The notes under the pieces: generated by a model | Told to the model about the DNA's origin: nothing | The model's database searches: none | The model's input: only the letters and a program-made list of their open reading frames with translations | Translations under genes and position numbers: made by a program | Assembly: GCA_002737635.1 (NCBI GenBank) | Contig: NSIC01000006.1 | Location: 1 to 33,898 of the forward strand | Source: Acidimicrobium sp. | Lineage (GTDB): Bacteria > Actinomycetota > Acidimicrobiia > Acidimicrobiales > Ilumatobacteraceae | Length of the DNA stretch: 33,898 nt | Reading direction: 5' to 3' | Part shown: positions 1,634 to 14,424 of the stretch, in pieces | Position numbering within the stretch: position 1 is the first letter of the stretch | Layout: every line of letters begins with the position of its first letter

Positions 1634-2584
1634 ATGCCGATAATTCCGGGGGGCGCAATCGGCGCAAAAATTATCGGCTGGGGCACTTCGTTGCCGCCAA
1701 AAGTCGTCACCAACGACGACCTATCAAAAACAATGGACACCTCAGATGAATGGATTCGTGAACGCACTGGCATCGAGCGTCGACATATTGGCGGCACGAC
1801 TGCAAGTTTGTCGATCGAGTCAGGCCGAAAAGCAATCGAAATGTCGGGCATTGATCCGTTGTCTATTGACGCGCTAGTTCTATCGACGACGACACCCGAC
1901 AGAACGGTGCCAGCAACAAGTGCCACCGTGCAACACGGTCTTGGTCTGCGATGCGGCGCATTTGACGTCAACGCAGCATGTTCGGGTTTCGTCTATGCAC
2001 TCATCACCGGTCACGGCCTCGTAGCGATGGGTATGAAACGAATTTTAGTGATCGGCACCGACACACTTTCACGCATTACCGATTGGACAGATCGCAACAC
2101 TGCGATCTTGTTCGCTGACGGTTCTGGCGCCGCAGTCATCGAAGCCACTAGCGGTCCTGGTCAATTACTCGGCTGGGACTTTGACGCTGATGGTTCACTC
2201 GAAGATCTTCTTTACGCGGAAATCGGGGGCACTTTACACATGGAAGGTAAAGAGGTCTTCCGTCGTGCCGTGCGCATCATGGTCGAATCTGCTGAAAAAT
2301 CTATCAAAGCAGCGGGTCTTACGACGAATGAAATTAATTTGGTTGTCCCCCATCAGGCGAACCTTCGCATAATTGAGGCTGCTTGCAAACGACTTGACAT
2401 TCCGATGAGCAAAACTTCGGTCGTTTTGAACGAGACAGGCAATACATCATCGGCGTCAATTCCATTAGCCCTGTTCGATGCAGTTGACCGGGGTCGCGTT
2501 AAGTCTGGCGACAACGTTTTGCTCGTTGGTTTTGGTGCCGGAATGACAGCCGCGAGCGCCGTCATAAAATGGAATCAATCATGA
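1634..2584 (+). CDS. fabH: Beta-ketoacyl-ACP synthase III
   Basis: Catalytic triad motifs NAACSGF (Cys), VVPHQAN (His), NETGNTSSASIP (Asn); follows fabD. Confidence 0.94.
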   Translation: MPIIPGGAIGAKIIGWGTSLPPKVVTNDDLSKTMDTSDEWIRERTGIERRHIGGTTASLSIESGRKAIEMSGIDPLSIDALVLSTTTPDRTVPATSATVQHGLGLRCGAFDVNAACSGFVYALITGHGLVAMGMKRILVIGTDTLSRITDWTDRNTAILFADGSGAAVIEATSGPGQLLGWDFDADGSLEDLLYAEIGGTLHMEGKEVFRRAVRIMVESAEKSIKAAGLTTNEINLVVPHQANLRIIEAACKRLDIPMSKTSVVLNETGNTSSASIPLALFDAVDRGRVKSGDNVLLVGFGAGMTAASAVIKWNQS

Positions 2585-3285
2585 GTCGAGTCGTCTTAAT
2601 AACTGGAGGTGCCAAAGGCATCGGTCTTGCCTGCGCTCAACATTTTGCGAAACTCGGCGACAAGGTTGCGATTACATACAACAGCACAAAACCGACCGAC
2701 GATTTTTTCGCCGTCAAGTGCGATGTCACATCTCAAACCGAAGTCGACGCAGCCTTCGCCGCAATCGAAGAAAAACTCGGACCTGTGCAAGTGCTCGTCT
2801 CAAATGCAGGTATCACTAAAGATCAGTTGCTTTTGCGTATGAGCGAAGCTGATTTTTCGTCGGTGATCGACGCCAACCTCACTGGCGCATATCGAGTTTG
2901 CAAACGAGCCACACAGAGCATGCTCCGCGCGCGTTCGGGTCGCATCATTTTGATGTCCTCAGTCGTTGGCCTACTCGGTTCGGCAGGTCAAGCCAACTAT
3001 GCAGCATCAAAAGCCGGGCTTGTAGGTTTCGCGCGATCATTGGCTCGCGAACTCGGCTCGCGAACGATCACCGTGAATGTCGTCGCACCTGGCCCAGTTG
3101 AAACTGACATGACAGCAGCGCTTACACAAGAACAACGCGACAACATGCTTAACGCTGTGCCACTCGGTCGAATGGCGACAGCGCAAGAAATCGCCTCGGT
3201 TGTTGTATTTCTCGCCTCGCAAGATGCTGGCTATATAACTGGTGCCGTAATCCCAGTCGATGGCGGTCTCGGCATGGGACACTAG
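2581..3285 (+). CDS. fabG: 3-oxoacyl-ACP reductase (SDR)
   Basis: TGGAKGIG cofactor motif, YAASKAG active site, VDGGLGMGH end; start set at the ATGA overlap with fabH (the track ORF begins at 2569). Confidence 0.92.
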   Translation: MSRVVLITGGAKGIGLACAQHFAKLGDKVAITYNSTKPTDDFFAVKCDVTSQTEVDAAFAAIEEKLGPVQVLVSNAGITKDQLLLRMSEADFSSVIDANLTGAYRVCKRATQSMLRARSGRIILMSSVVGLLGSAGQANYAASKAGLVGFARSLARELGSRTITVNVVAPGPVETDMTAALTQEQRDNMLNAVPLGRMATAQEIASVVVFLASQDAGYITGAVIPVDGGLGMGH

Positions 3286-3294
3286 ACTTATTAC

Positions 3295-3534
3295 ATGGAC
3301 CAACAACTTTTTGATCGTTTTAAAAAATGTGCAGTGGATGTACTGGCAGTTGATGCGGCCAAGATCACAATGGAAGCCAGCTTCAAAGACGATCTTGGCT
3401 CAGACAGTCTCGACTTGGTCGAATTCGTAATGGCCCTTGAAGAAGAGTTCGGCATCACAGTGCCTGAAAGCGATCTAGAAGGCGTTGACACTGTGGGCAA
3501 GGCCTTCAACCTCGTAACCACAAAAGTTTCTTGA
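3295..3534 (+). CDS. acpP: Acyl carrier protein
   Basis: 79 aa acidic protein with DLGSDSLDLVE phosphopantetheine motif, inside a fab cluster. Confidence 0.95.
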   Translation: MDQQLFDRFKKCAVDVLAVDAAKITMEASFKDDLGSDSLDLVEFVMALEEEFGITVPESDLEGVDTVGKAFNLVTTKVS

Positions 3535-3556
3535 TTTCTAACCTGCTCTAACTTTC

Positions 3557-4744
3557 ATGCAGGGTGCAGGTCATCGAGTTGCAATAACTGGCTACGGCGT
3601 AGTCGCGCCGTGCGGTATCGGTAAGCAAAACTTCTGGCAAGGACTTCTTGGCGCAGGCATTTCAGGCAGCCATACAGTACAAATCGAAAACTGGGATCCA
3701 TCGCCATATTTCGCGGGCCCAAAAGAGGCTCGCCGTTCTGACCGTTGCGAACAATACGCATTGGCCGCCGCATCAGAGGCACTAGCACAATCAGGATCAC
3801 TGCCCTACGACGCGACTCGCATCGGCACGATATTTGGCACCGGCATTGGCGGTTTGCGCACTCTCGAAGAACAAGTCATCGTTCGATTCGAAAAAGGCGA
3901 ACGCCGCGTCTCCCCGTTCTTGGTGCCAATGATGATGTCAAATGCATCGGGTGCAGCAATTTCGATGCGTTATGGTTTTCAGGGTCCTGCCGAAACTATC
4001 TGTACTGCATGCGCTGCAGCGACACACGCTCTTGGTTATGCCGCCCGACTCGTGGCCTGGGGTCGATGCGATGCGGTTATCTCTGGTGGCGCCGAATCTG
4101 CCGCGACGATCACTGCCGTTGCTGGTTTTGTAAACATGACAGCATTGTCAACGACAAAAGTAAGCAAACCGTTTGATGCAACGCGCGACGGTTTCATTTT
4201 CGGCGAAGGTGCCGCAGTTTTTGTTCTCGAGCGATTAGATCTAGCGCTAGCACGCAATGCAACAATTTACGGAGAAATCTTGGGCGCTGGCAGCAACGCC
4301 GATGCACACCATATAACCGCGCCGTCTCCTGGCGGCGTAGGTGCGATCGCGTGCATGAAACTTGCACTCGATGACGCTGGTCTTTCGCCGAGCGACATCA
4401 AACAGGTAAATGCTCACGGCACATCGACACCGCTTAATGACGCTGCCGAGGCAAGTGCAGTCACAGCGGTATTTGGTGCAACAAAACCACCCATGACCTC
4501 AATCAAGGGTGTGACTGGACACCCACTCGGCGCTGCAGGCGCTCTTGAGGCGGCAGCTGTTTTGCTTTCGTTCGAACACAAGTTGATTCCTCCGACTGCA
4601 AACACGACGGTTGTTGATCCTGGGATGTCAGGCGTTGATATCGTCACCGGCAAAGCGCGTGCTTGGCAACCGGGGCCAACGATTTCAAATAACTTTGGCT
4701 TCGGTGGCCACAACGGCTCGATAATTATCGCGCCACACCCTTAA
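3557..4744 (+). CDS. fabF: Beta-ketoacyl-ACP synthase II
   Basis: CTACAAATHA (Cys), NAHGTSTPLND (His), GVTGHPLGAAGALEAA (His) KAS-II motifs. Confidence 0.94.
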   Translation: MQGAGHRVAITGYGVVAPCGIGKQNFWQGLLGAGISGSHTVQIENWDPSPYFAGPKEARRSDRCEQYALAAASEALAQSGSLPYDATRIGTIFGTGIGGLRTLEEQVIVRFEKGERRVSPFLVPMMMSNASGAAISMRYGFQGPAETICTACAAATHALGYAARLVAWGRCDAVISGGAESAATITAVAGFVNMTALSTTKVSKPFDATRDGFIFGEGAAVFVLERLDLALARNATIYGEILGAGSNADAHHITAPSPGGVGAIACMKLALDDAGLSPSDIKQVNAHGTSTPLNDAAEASAVTAVFGATKPPMTSIKGVTGHPLGAAGALEAAAVLLSFEHKLIPPTANTTVVDPGMSGVDIVTGKARAWQPGPTISNNFGFGGHNGSIIIAPHP

Positions 4745-10436: not shown

Positions 10437-11162
10437 CTAATACTCAGGACGCTCAAACACTGCGACCGACTTGAGGCGACGCTCGAGATGATGCTCCATA
10501 CATTTTGTCGCAAGATCGGATACCTCGCGAGTTGCCGAACTCTCTGGCAAAGAAAGAGCCTGATTCAAATGTCCACCGACAATATTTTGGATGATCTTTA
10601 TCGCATCATTCGAAATAGTCGCGCCACTGCGACAACTCTGACATTGCCCGCCGCCACGAAATAGGTCGAACGCCACGATCTTGTCGCCAGACGCTCCGCA
10701 ACCCACACAACTCTCAACATGTGCACCAACTCCCTCAACGACAAGCAACTTAAAATAAAATGCAGCCAGAACCAACGCTGAGTCGTTTTCTGAAAGCCAT
10801 TGCAACGCTCCAACCAACATTTTGTAAAGGTGCGGTGTTGGCTCAGCCTCCATGCCGAGTTGGTCAACTGCTTCAAGCATTGCCAAACCGCGTGTCAGAC
10901 GATCCAAATCGCTGTATAGACCTCTTGCGTTCGTCACCAATTCAACCTGATTTACCGTGTCTAAGTCTTTGCCTTTGTTCAGCAATACATCAATATGACT
11001 TAATGGTTCTAGGCGAGCGCCAAACCGAGACGACATTTTTCGCACACCGTTGGCAACTGCGCGAACCTTTCCGTGTTCTTCGCTCATCATCACGATTATG
11101 CGATCTGCTTCGCGTAAATCATATGTGCGCAACACAACCGCCTTATCGCGATACAAACTCAC
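10437..11162 (-). CDS. recO: DNA repair protein RecO
   Basis: MSLYRDKAVVLRTYDLREADRI N-terminal OB domain and CVGCG/CQSC zinc ligands; GTG start overlapping the upstream stop. Confidence 0.93.
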   Translation of the reverse strand: MSLYRDKAVVLRTYDLREADRIIVMMSEEHGKVRAVANGVRKMSSRFGARLEPLSHIDVLLNKGKDLDTVNQVELVTNARGLYSDLDRLTRGLAMLEAVDQLGMEAEPTPHLYKMLVGALQWLSENDSALVLAAFYFKLLVVEGVGAHVESCVGCGASGDKIVAFDLFRGGGQCQSCRSGATISNDAIKIIQNIVGGHLNQALSLPESSATREVSDLATKCMEHHLERRLKSVAVFERPEY

Positions 11163-11755
11163 GAGTCGACACCACCAAAGCGACGATCGCGACGTTGAAA
11201 ATCACCGATAGCCATTTGAATGTGTTCGACATCGCATTGCAACCACGGCACATTCAAGAACACAAGTTCGCTATACGCGAGTTCCCACATCAAAGATTCA
11301 GGCACCTGAGTAGGCGCACCCAACACCAAAACCAAATCGGGTTCACCAGATGCTGGTGAGAGAAGTGTCGCCGCAAGCTTCTCTTCATCGATCTCTTGAC
11401 TACTGCTCAGTTGAGCCACGGCATTGACAAACCGCTCTTGACCATCCGCGCAAGTATCGACCACGACAATTAGTCCATGTTCAGCGATCACAGAAACTCT
11501 GTCACCAGAACGCTGACCACCAAAAATCGAAATGATTGAGTTACAGATTGCTGTGCGCTCAATCGCGCTCGCGTCCCCTGAGTAAGGATAAATAGAAAGC
11601 CACCGAACTCCGACTCCACCAACTGAACGCACCAACGCATCGATCTGAATTTTCCATTGGTCAGGGGTAGTTTTTAGCCATTCAACGATGGTTCCGGCAC
11701 ACACCAAGACATGAGCCAATTCGCTATTCAAATCGCGCGTTGTCTTAGACATCAT
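11159..11755 (-). CDS. Degenerate cis-prenyltransferase paralog (UppS-like, lacks catalytic MDGNGR motif, keeps C-terminal RxG motif)
   Basis: C-terminus MWELAYSELVFLNVPWLQCDVEHIQMAIGDFQRRDRRFGG matches the UppS C-terminal pattern (LWQxAYAELYF..WPDF...RERRFGG); N-terminal HVLVCAGTIVEWL replaces HVxxIMDGNGRWA. Confidence 0.8.
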   Translation of the reverse strand: MMSKTTRDLNSELAHVLVCAGTIVEWLKTTPDQWKIQIDALVRSVGGVGVRWLSIYPYSGDASAIERTAICNSIISIFGGQRSGDRVSVIAEHGLIVVVDTCADGQERFVNAVAQLSSSQEIDEEKLAATLLSPASGEPDLVLVLGAPTQVPESLMWELAYSELVFLNVPWLQCDVEHIQMAIGDFQRRDRRFGGVDS

Positions 11756-11814
11756 TACATTGTCTCACTTTTAAACGACTCAACTCGCCAATCAGAGTTG
11801 TTAGCGTTGAAATA

Positions 11815-12483
11815 ATGAATTCAAAATCGCTCCACGTGGCCTGCATCATGGACGGTAACGGAAGATGGGCTCGTAAGCGCGGTTTGCCCCGTACGGCTGG
11901 TCACACCGCGGGCGAAGAATCACTTGCCGATATTGTTCGTGCTGCTTCAAAGCGCGAGGTTGCATACTTGACGGTGTTTGGCTTTTCTACCGAAAACTGG
12001 GTGCGCCCGCGAGCTGAAGTTCGTCATATTCTCGGCCTGCACAAGAAACTCTTCGGACGAATTGCTGAACTTAATGAAAATGACGTTCGCGTCAATTGGA
12101 TAGGTCGTCCATTCGACGAGCCCGGTTCGCGCACACCGCTTTACGTGCAACGAGCAATTCGAAAAGCCATCGAAGACACCAGAAACAACACCGGCATGGT
12201 TTTGACTGTCGCATTCGACTATGGCTCACGAAGCGAACTGACTCGTGCAGCCAAAAAACTTGTTGAATCTAACGCCGACCTCACCCCCGCAAACTTGCAA
12301 CGAGATCTCTATGACGCGTCTTTGCCGCCGGTTGATGTACTCGTTCGAACCTCAGGTGAATCTCGAATCTCAAATTTCTTGCTCTGGCAAATCAAAGCGG
12401 CGAAAATCTATTTCACCGAGCGACCATGGCCAGATTTCGACGCCGTTGATCTTGACGCCGCCATCGCCCTGGCAAAGAACTAG
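11815..12483 (+). CDS. uppS: Undecaprenyl/polyprenyl diphosphate synthase, catalytic subunit
   Basis: HVACIMDGNGRWARKRGLPR, FGFSTENW, RTSGESRISNFLLWQ, ERPWPDF motifs; C-terminal RxG tail absent. Confidence 0.93.
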   Translation: MNSKSLHVACIMDGNGRWARKRGLPRTAGHTAGEESLADIVRAASKREVAYLTVFGFSTENWVRPRAEVRHILGLHKKLFGRIAELNENDVRVNWIGRPFDEPGSRTPLYVQRAIRKAIEDTRNNTGMVLTVAFDYGSRSELTRAAKKLVESNADLTPANLQRDLYDASLPPVDVLVRTSGESRISNFLLWQIKAAKIYFTERPWPDFDAVDLDAAIALAKN

Positions 12484-12516: not shown

Positions 12517-14424
12517 GTGCCGCCAAATATCGCCGACCAAGAAGTACTTGACGCATTGCGCCGTGTTACAAATGAATTGAGTAACGCTGAACTTCGCCAG
12601 GGTCAAGATGAGATGGCTGTTTTGGTTGGTCGTGCTCTCCGTAAAAACCGACATCTAATCGTGCAAGCAGGTACAGGCACGGGCAAAACGCTCGGCTATC
12701 TAGTGCCTGCAATTGTTTCGGGTCGACGCATTGTTGTATCAACGGTGACAAAGGCGCTGCAAGACCAACTTTCACAAAACGATCTTCCATTGTTGGCCAA
12801 AGCCCTAAACCCGACCCTCGATCACGAATTGACATGGACAGTTCTGAAGGGTCGCAGCAATTATTTATGTCGCCAGCGAATCGCCGAACTCGCCGATCGC
12901 GCCCAGTCTCGACTTGAACTCGACGACCTCTCGGTGCGCACAAAATCAGATATTAAAAAACTTTGCGAATGGGCAGAGTCGACACAGACGGGAGACGAAG
13001 GCGAACTCGATTGGCAACCACAACGAAATGCTTGGTCGATGGTTAGCGTCACCAGCGAAGAGTGCCCTGGTGCATCTCGATGCCCAAATGGTGAGAGGTG
13101 CTTTTCTGAGCGCGCAAGAAATGAAAGTCAAACCTCCGACATCGTGATCGTCAACGGTTGGCTTTATGCGTTAGACATCGTCACTGAGGGCACGATCATC
13201 GGTGAACATGATGTCGTCATTTTTGACGAGGCGCACGAGCTTGAAGATGTCGTCACCGATTCTGCGGGGCTTGCGCTATCACCGAGTCGCATAACGGCAA
13301 TTGGTTCGGCGATGAGATCGATAATTCGCGACGACGCGATGTCGGGTGGGTTTGCCAAGAGTGCCGCCCGACTGCGCGATGCGATTGTGCCGTTCATCAA
13401 CAAGCGACTTTCATTGCCCCTTGACAATGAATCTCGCGAAACTCTCGTCGAAGTGCGGGGTCGCGCAAACGGAGCACTCGAGTCGCTGCGCACCATCGCC
13501 ACAAATGACGAGTCAGCCAAACAAAGAAAACTCCGTGCGCAATCTCTTTGCACTCGTTTCATCGAGGACCTTGATTTGGCCCTCACCGATCGCAGCGGAT
13601 ATGTCGCATATGTCGCCGGCACACCTGACCGATGCTCACTTGAGATGCGCCCTTTAAATGTGGGTGCAGCGCTGCATGAAGCTGTTTGGTCACAGCGCAC
13701 TGCGATTTTGACAAGTGCGACAATTCCGAACAATCTGCCCGAGCGACTCGGCCTTGTGCCCGAGAGTTTTGATGCATGCCATGTGGCAAGCCCGTTTGAT
13801 TACGAAAATAATTCGCTGTTGTATTGCGCATCACATTTGCCCGATCCGGCACAGGGGGTGCGCGACAAAGCGGTGCATCGCGAAATTGAAGAGTTGATCA
13901 ACGCAGCCGGTGGCCGCACCCTTGCGCTATTCACGAGTTACGCGCGATTGAATAGTGCTTACAGCGAACTTGAAGACAAACTTGAATTCAAAATTCTCAA
14001 ACAAGACGATCTTCCAAAAATGGAGTTGCTGCGCAAATTCGCCGAAAATGAAGCTACATGCTTGTTTGCAACGCAAAGTTTCTTTCAGGGTGTCGATGTG
14101 CCGGGTCAAACGCTAAGTCTCGTAATCATTGACCGTCTGCCGTTTCCCGTGCCGACAGATCCGCTGATGAGCGCGCGCCGAGACGCCTACGGCAAATCTG
14201 CATTCACCGCGATTGACATTCCGATTGCTGCAACAAAATTGGCGCAAGCCGCTGGTCGACTAATTCGCACACAAACCGATATCGGAGTAGTCGCCGTTCT
14301 CGACCCGCGACTCGTGACGAAGGGTTACGGCAAGTCGATAATCGAAATGTTGCCCCCAATGGAGTTCACCAACAAACTCGCAAGAGCCAAAGAATTTTTG
14401 GCTTACGCCGTCAAAAGTCGATAA
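12517..14424 (+). CDS. DinG/XPD-family ATP-dependent DNA helicase
   Basis: QAGTGTGKTLGYLVPA Walker A, IFDEAHELEDV Walker B (DEAH), Cys cluster CPGASRCPNGERC, AAGRLIRTQTDIGVVAVLDPR motif VI; GTG start. Confidence 0.93.
   Translation: MPPNIADQEVLDALRRVTNELSNAELRQGQDEMAVLVGRALRKNRHLIVQAGTGTGKTLGYLVPAIVSGRRIVVSTVTKALQDQLSQNDLPLLAKALNPTLDHELTWTVLKGRSNYLCRQRIAELADRAQSRLELDDLSVRTKSDIKKLCEWAESTQTGDEGELDWQPQRNAWSMVSVTSEECPGASRCPNGERCFSERARNESQTSDIVIVNGWLYALDIVTEGTIIGEHDVVIFDEAHELEDVVTDSAGLALSPSRITAIGSAMRSIIRDDAMSGGFAKSAARLRDAIVPFINKRLSLPLDNESRETLVEVRGRANGALESLRTIATNDESAKQRKLRAQSLCTRFIEDLDLALTDRSGYVAYVAGTPDRCSLEMRPLNVGAALHEAVWSQRTAILTSATIPNNLPERLGLVPESFDACHVASPFDYENNSLLYCASHLPDPAQGVRDKAVHREIEELINAAGGRTLALFTSYARLNSAYSELEDKLEFKILKQDDLPKMELLRKFAENEATCLFATQSFFQGVDVPGQTLSLVIIDRLPFPVPTDPLMSARRDAYGKSAFTAIDIPIAATKLAQAAGRLIRTQTDIGVVAVLDPRLVTKGYGKSIIEMLPPMEFTNKLARAKEFLAYAVKSR

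Follow-up and report, generated by a model that had tools for sequence, protein, structure and literature searches.

Undecaprenyl-diphosphate synthase (UppS) is an essential enzyme of cell-wall lipid-carrier synthesis and is normally a dimer of identical proteins. In the Ilumatobacteraceae, which are free-living Actinomycetota, this enzyme appears to be split into one gene that carries the catalytic site and another that carries the C-terminal tail. The question raised by the locus described here, found in a 33,898 nt stretch of Acidimicrobium sp. contig NSIC01000006.1 (the window, i.e. the whole stretch that was analysed), is whether two neighbouring UppS relatives, each incomplete, together encode a single enzyme.

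The first of these genes, the non-catalytic gene (NC), lies on the minus strand at 11159-11755, with an ATG at 11755 and a TGA stop at 11161-11159, and encodes a 198 aa protein; the plus-strand reading of 11159-11755 is full of stops. An earlier note had described a 198 aa UppS paralog here that had lost the catalytic motif and kept the RxG tail. The ORF is indeed present, on the minus strand, and the quoted motifs are exact. Where HVxxIMDGNGRWA is expected, NC has HVLVCAGTIVEWL (11675-11713, minus strand), a degenerate catalytic P-loop in which the equivalents of D26, N28 and R30 are lost and the W is kept (residue numbers follow E. coli UppS). The WELAYSE helix (11267-11287, minus strand) retains the equivalents of Y211 and E213, and the protein ends in ...DFQRRDRRFGGVDS, including the RRDRRFGG tail (11171-11194, minus strand) with its RxG motif R192-F193-G194.

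NC matched Pfam family PF01255 with 46.2 bits (E-value: 5.4e-12, cut-off 27) over residues 104-194 (profile positions 124-219). Scores against the NCBIfam UppS models were at most 58 bits, under their equivalog cut-offs, and single-sequence profiles gave no match for the N-terminal half. Judged from these sequence comparisons, homology of NC to UppS is well above chance. The predicted structure (pLDDT 83) matched UppS structures in Foldseek with E-values down to 3e-8 and TM-scores mostly of 0.5-0.65, which supports a whole UppS-like fold. The alignment with the entire fold proposed in the earlier note is therefore upheld by the predicted structure, whereas the profile match covers just the C-terminal half. 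Residues 1-10 of the model are of low confidence, as are its last 7 residues, which is expected for a tail modelled without its partner. NC has no N-terminal membrane segment, as only 14 residues precede the first strand of the fold.

The second gene, at 11815-12483 on the plus strand, encodes a catalytic UppS subunit of 222 aa that has all of the tested catalytic residues but no RxG tail. This protein matched PF01255 with 224.6 bits over profile positions 1-209 of 219, and its model (pLDDT 85) matched UppS PDB entry 7cpn (E-value: 1.7e-22, TM-score about 0.8); by profile and Foldseek, both proteins thus belong to the PF01255 fold family. The catalytic P-loop, MDGNGRWA (11848-11871), is intact. 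At WQIKAAKIYF (12385-12414) the Y211 and E213 equivalents are lost (A195 and K197), and the protein terminates at ...WPDFDAVDLDAAIALAKN, before the RxG tail (truncated C-terminus ...AIALAKN and stop, 12454-12483). The absence of the tail and of the E213-equivalent glutamate had gone unremarked in the earlier note. A frameshift or sequencing error at this C-terminus was considered and rejected: reading all three forward frames past the stop revealed no RRFGG remnant, and the proteins of all relatives terminate at a similar position. The catalytic subunits also have a loop insertion in common (GRPFDEPGSRTP or IGRPFDEPGSRTP, compared with IGRRDWRVP in full-length UppS), which may have a bearing on the heteromer interface or on chain length.

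The residues lost from the two proteins are complementary. This was seen in an alignment of 34 catalytic proteins, 34 NC proteins and 40 full-length UppS proteins from other families of the order. Eleven positions that are invariant in full-length UppS (D26, N28, R30, H43, S71, N74, W75, R77, R194, R200 and S202) are likewise conserved in all 34 catalytic proteins and are mostly or wholly lost in NC. D26, R30, H43, R194 and S202 occur in none of the 34 NC proteins (the D26 position is a G in 33 of these, the other row being cut by the contig); survivors include S71 (19/34), R200 (11/34) and N74 (3/34). Conversely, every NC protein (n=34) has Y211, E213, R239, R241, R242 and G244, and full-length UppS (n=40) shows little or no variation at Y211, E213 and the RxRRFGG residues. 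The RxG tail is found in 0/34 catalytic proteins, which have mainly small residues at Y211 and, at E213, a K in 24 cases and an E in just two. Outside the conserved C-terminal motifs, NC falls to about 30% identity. Neither protein meets the criterion for a homodimeric UppS, namely the catalytic Asp/Arg/His set and the C-terminal RxG in one chain. The pair does show the two sequence features expected of a heteromer: a catalytic subunit with the substrate residues but no RxG (34/34 aligned), and a non-catalytic subunit with RxG (34/34) and without the Asp (0/34).

The same division of residues is found in the human enzyme. (The human DHDDS and NUS1 sequences used as queries agree with the PDB chains recovered in the search except at single residues.) DHDDS resembles the catalytic subunit in having SHSCLVF in place of the AYAELYF of UppS and in lacking RxG at the corresponding position, and NUS1 (NgBR) resembles NC in its dead active site, its retained glutamate (LPWHIRLTEIV) and its C-terminal RxG (RLGK end). 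Within the DHDDS/NgBR complex, the C-terminal end of NgBR reaches across the interface and contributes to the substrate sites of its partner; the RxG tail completes the active site there, and RxG mutations impair activity (PMC7573591). In contrast to human DHDDS/NgBR and yeast Rer2/Nus1, the present pair is bacterial and probably cytosolic: NC lacks the N-terminal membrane segment of NgBR and ends in RRFGGVDS rather than RLGK, while the catalytic subunit lacks the extra C-terminal helix-turn-helix of DHDDS. The fold is shared with homodimeric UppS (E. coli, B. subtilis and T. fusca), but there the catalytic residues and RxG are on one chain, whereas here they are divided between two genes.

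We consider it very likely that these two divergent genes encode an obligate heteromeric cis-prenyltransferase, although the pairing, active-site completion, product and essentiality are inferred. In the proposed mechanism, the 11815-12483 product would bind FPP/Mg2+ and IPP and carry out the condensations, while the 11755-11159 product, a dead UppS fold, would dock via the normal UppS dimer face. Its RRFGG tail, probably together with the glutamate side of WELAYSE, would insert into the partner's active site and complete the IPP site, which a homodimer provides on its own. The product would be a polyprenyl diphosphate carrier for peptidoglycan, probably of about C50-55 (undecaprenyl-type). 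There is no direct evidence for heterodimerisation or for activity of the pair. Because the genes are divergent and do not form one operon, subunit stoichiometry is not set by cotranscription; they are separated by a 59 bp intergenic region (11756-11814), around which a promoter scan identified no sigma-70-type consensus.

Two PF01255 censuses were carried out, one of 61 genomes and one of 148 genomes from about 60 families of the order. Genomes from outside the Ilumatobacteraceae almost always have a full-length UppS (profile positions 1-219), the gene being split over contigs, partial or missing in a few. No full-length UppS was found in any Ilumatobacteraceae genome searched; these have the truncated catalytic gene and NC instead. 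Both genes are present in 31 of the 37 Ilumatobacteraceae genomes in the 61-genome census, and the six exceptions (G003, G004, G006, G020, G023 and G031) are MAGs that are incomplete and mostly have the genes at the end of a contig; G004 has only NC fragments with broken frames at a contig end. The complete, single-contig genomes G061 and G161 contain exactly the pair and no third PF01255 gene, and no further UppS was found in the window's own genome, which is 71% complete. Co-occurrence of both subunits without another UppS, as expected of an obligate heteromer, thus holds apart from these incomplete MAGs, and an obligate heteromer is the most economical reading given that the complete genomes have no other UppS.

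Named NC loci were taken from the best 80 matches of a pattern search of genome contigs. Among these matches, the catalytic gene is on the contig at 74/80 NC loci, always with MDGNGRW and always divergent; RRFGG is absent from all 73 catalytic genes with a complete C-terminus, and NC ends with RRFGG in 79/79 readable tails, one more being cut by a contig end. Since the pattern used to search for NC is itself partly selective for the tail, the independent evidence comes from the tail-less catalytic genes and the unbiased PF01255 census. No NC-like protein was found elsewhere in Actinomycetota when 396 sampled genomes were searched with the NC profile: scores in the family are 145-337 bits, and the best match outside it (97 bits) is the C-terminal part of an ordinary UppS. 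The complementary pair is a family-wide trait of Ilumatobacteraceae genomes with readable loci. Nine loci with the pair (L071, L079, L083, L091, L094-L096, L109 and L121) are on MAGs with titles such as Bifidobacterium breve, Ferrithrix thermotolerans and Acidobacteria, which are apparently mislabelled. A second full-length PF01255 gene (profile positions 1-219) was observed in G067, G110, G112, G145 and G172, of families f29 and f31; this two-UppS state is distinct from the split pair.

The neighbouring genes indicate which copy occupies the original position. On the minus strand, recO (10437-11162, GTG start) overlaps the NC stop by 4 nt (GTGA), which supports the cotranscription with recO suggested earlier, and a DinG-like helicase gene (12517-14424, plus strand) is directly 3' of the catalytic uppS. 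Most sister-family loci that were checked have recO next after uppS in the same orientation, and dinG, at those loci where it was seen, is transcribed divergently from uppS; the arrangement recO-uppS / dinG there corresponds to recO-NC / cat-dinG in Ilumatobacteraceae. From this synteny, the slot next to recO is the ancestral place of uppS and is now taken by NC, with the catalytic copy between NC and dinG.

The alternative that survives best, although we regard it as improbable, is that the catalytic subunit acts as a tail-less homodimer and that NC is a stand-alone regulator or has another role, e.g. with RecO, whose gene NC overlaps. Tail-less cis-prenyltransferases can act alone, as does MM_0014 of Methanosarcina mazei, a homodimer (PMC8131916), and DHDDS homodimers are weakly active (PMC7573591). 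Full activity of the catalytic protein on its own is unlikely, though not excluded, because it lacks both the RxG tail and the E213-equivalent glutamate. Adjacency to recO is ancestral for uppS and so requires no new role for NC. Furthermore, what NC has kept (RRFGG and AYxE, 34/34), while the rest has drifted to low identity, is exactly the set of segments with which one UppS chain acts at the active site of its dimer partner. These segments are the very features that the catalytic protein has lost, and the two genes occur together in every case that could be checked on the contig, except in the fragmentary G004. The accessory-subunit reading of the earlier note is thus supported by the complementary residue loss, the DHDDS/NgBR-like division of residues and the synteny, with complex formation and enzymology unshown.

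A heteromer might also make something else. Eukaryotic heteromeric enzymes produce longer chains (PMC7573591, PMC7839719) and the catalytic protein carries a loop insertion of its own relative to full-length UppS, so the pair could conceivably synthesize a short-chain or >C55 product while an undetected enzyme supplied the cell-wall carrier. This is very unlikely: Ilumatobacteraceae, including G061 and G161, encode MraY-type enzymes (PF00953), for which undecaprenyl phosphate should be needed, yet their complete genomes have no third PF01255 gene, and the syntenic gene is the sole UppS of the sister families in nearly all cases.

NC is under strong purifying selection, with a median within-genus dN/dS of 0.049 (0.03 for the catalytic gene), although these values are rough because dS is high. 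That NC is merely a degenerating pseudogene of an old uppS copy, as might be suggested by the many catalytic residues and the portion of the N-terminal half that it has lost, is scarcely credible in view of this dN/dS, of frames that are open family-wide, of its invariant C-terminal motifs and of its presence in complete genomes of several genera. The paralog is thus neither absent nor decayed in close relatives that keep uppS, either of which would have counted against an accessory subunit. Evolutionary distances of NC and the catalytic protein across 71 loci have a partial rank correlation of 0.55, compared with 0.30 and 0.17 with RecO; we treat this correlation beyond RecO as supportive only.

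For the origin of the obligate heteromer, we propose that in the ancestor of Ilumatobacteraceae a pair of uppS genes lost complementary halves: the copy in the recO-linked ancestral slot would have lost catalysis, and the copy before dinG its tail. Such a duplication followed by reciprocal loss is a likely history, but an inferred one. The catalytic proteins form a monophyletic clade (SH-aLRT 100) on a long stem, and its grouping with Acidimicrobiales UppS was neither shown nor rejected (AU p 0.43); as its placement is unresolved, horizontal transfer of the catalytic copy remains possible. NC could not be placed in a tree of 78 C-terminal columns, from which NUS1 was absent. The NC profile matched bacterial UppS (E-value: 6e-18) more strongly than NUS1 (over residues 36-193, E-value: 1.2e-7), and this and the ancestral uppS slot argue for a local origin of NC. 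Because NC sits in that bacterial slot, an origin independent of NgBR is likely and descent from NgBR is unlikely; "NgBR-like", the term used in the earlier note, holds for the mode of action, whereas ancestry from NgBR is not supported. We think it probable that this is a bacterial heteromeric undecaprenyl-diphosphate synthase whose evolution, through duplication and reciprocal loss at a single locus, was separate from that of the eukaryotic and archaeal heteromers, and that it is obligate for cell-wall synthesis throughout the family.

If so, the ancestral state in sister families and the reciprocal loss would show how a homodimer evolves into an obligate heteromer, and the pair would offer both a divided form of an essential antibacterial target and a simple, soluble model of NgBR/DHDDS, in which RxG and active-site mutations lead to human disease. 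A gene annotated "uppS" in freshwater Ilumatobacteraceae would name half an enzyme. Heteromeric cis-prenyltransferases have been described from eukaryotes and M. mazei, and a review gives homodimers as the bacterial and plant form and heteromers as typically eukaryotic (PMC7839719). The archaeal enzyme is MM_0618/MM_1083 (Emi et al. 2019, cited in PMC8131916); it resembles the present pair in being prokaryotic and two-subunit and in being used for a glycosyl-carrier lipid, but it is archaeal, whereas the bacterial pair described here presumably serves peptidoglycan. In the open-licence literature we found no account of a heteromeric cis-prenyltransferase from bacteria, although an unseen report elsewhere remains possible, and the survey of NC distribution covered Actinomycetota, other bacterial phyla not being systematically included.

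Variation in locus layout was also observed. In a subclade comprising L037, L049, L067/L101 and L068, the gap between NC and the catalytic gene is about 2.2 kb instead of the usual 60 bp or so. In L037 it contains a gene (2321-4420, minus strand) for a polytopic membrane protein of ~700 aa with no Pfam match; in L049 the gap is present without an intact ORF of such length. In L058, L060, L201 and similar loci, the catalytic gene's stop codon seems to overlap an ATG of the downstream dinG-like gene, which suggests that uppS and dinG are coupled in several relatives.
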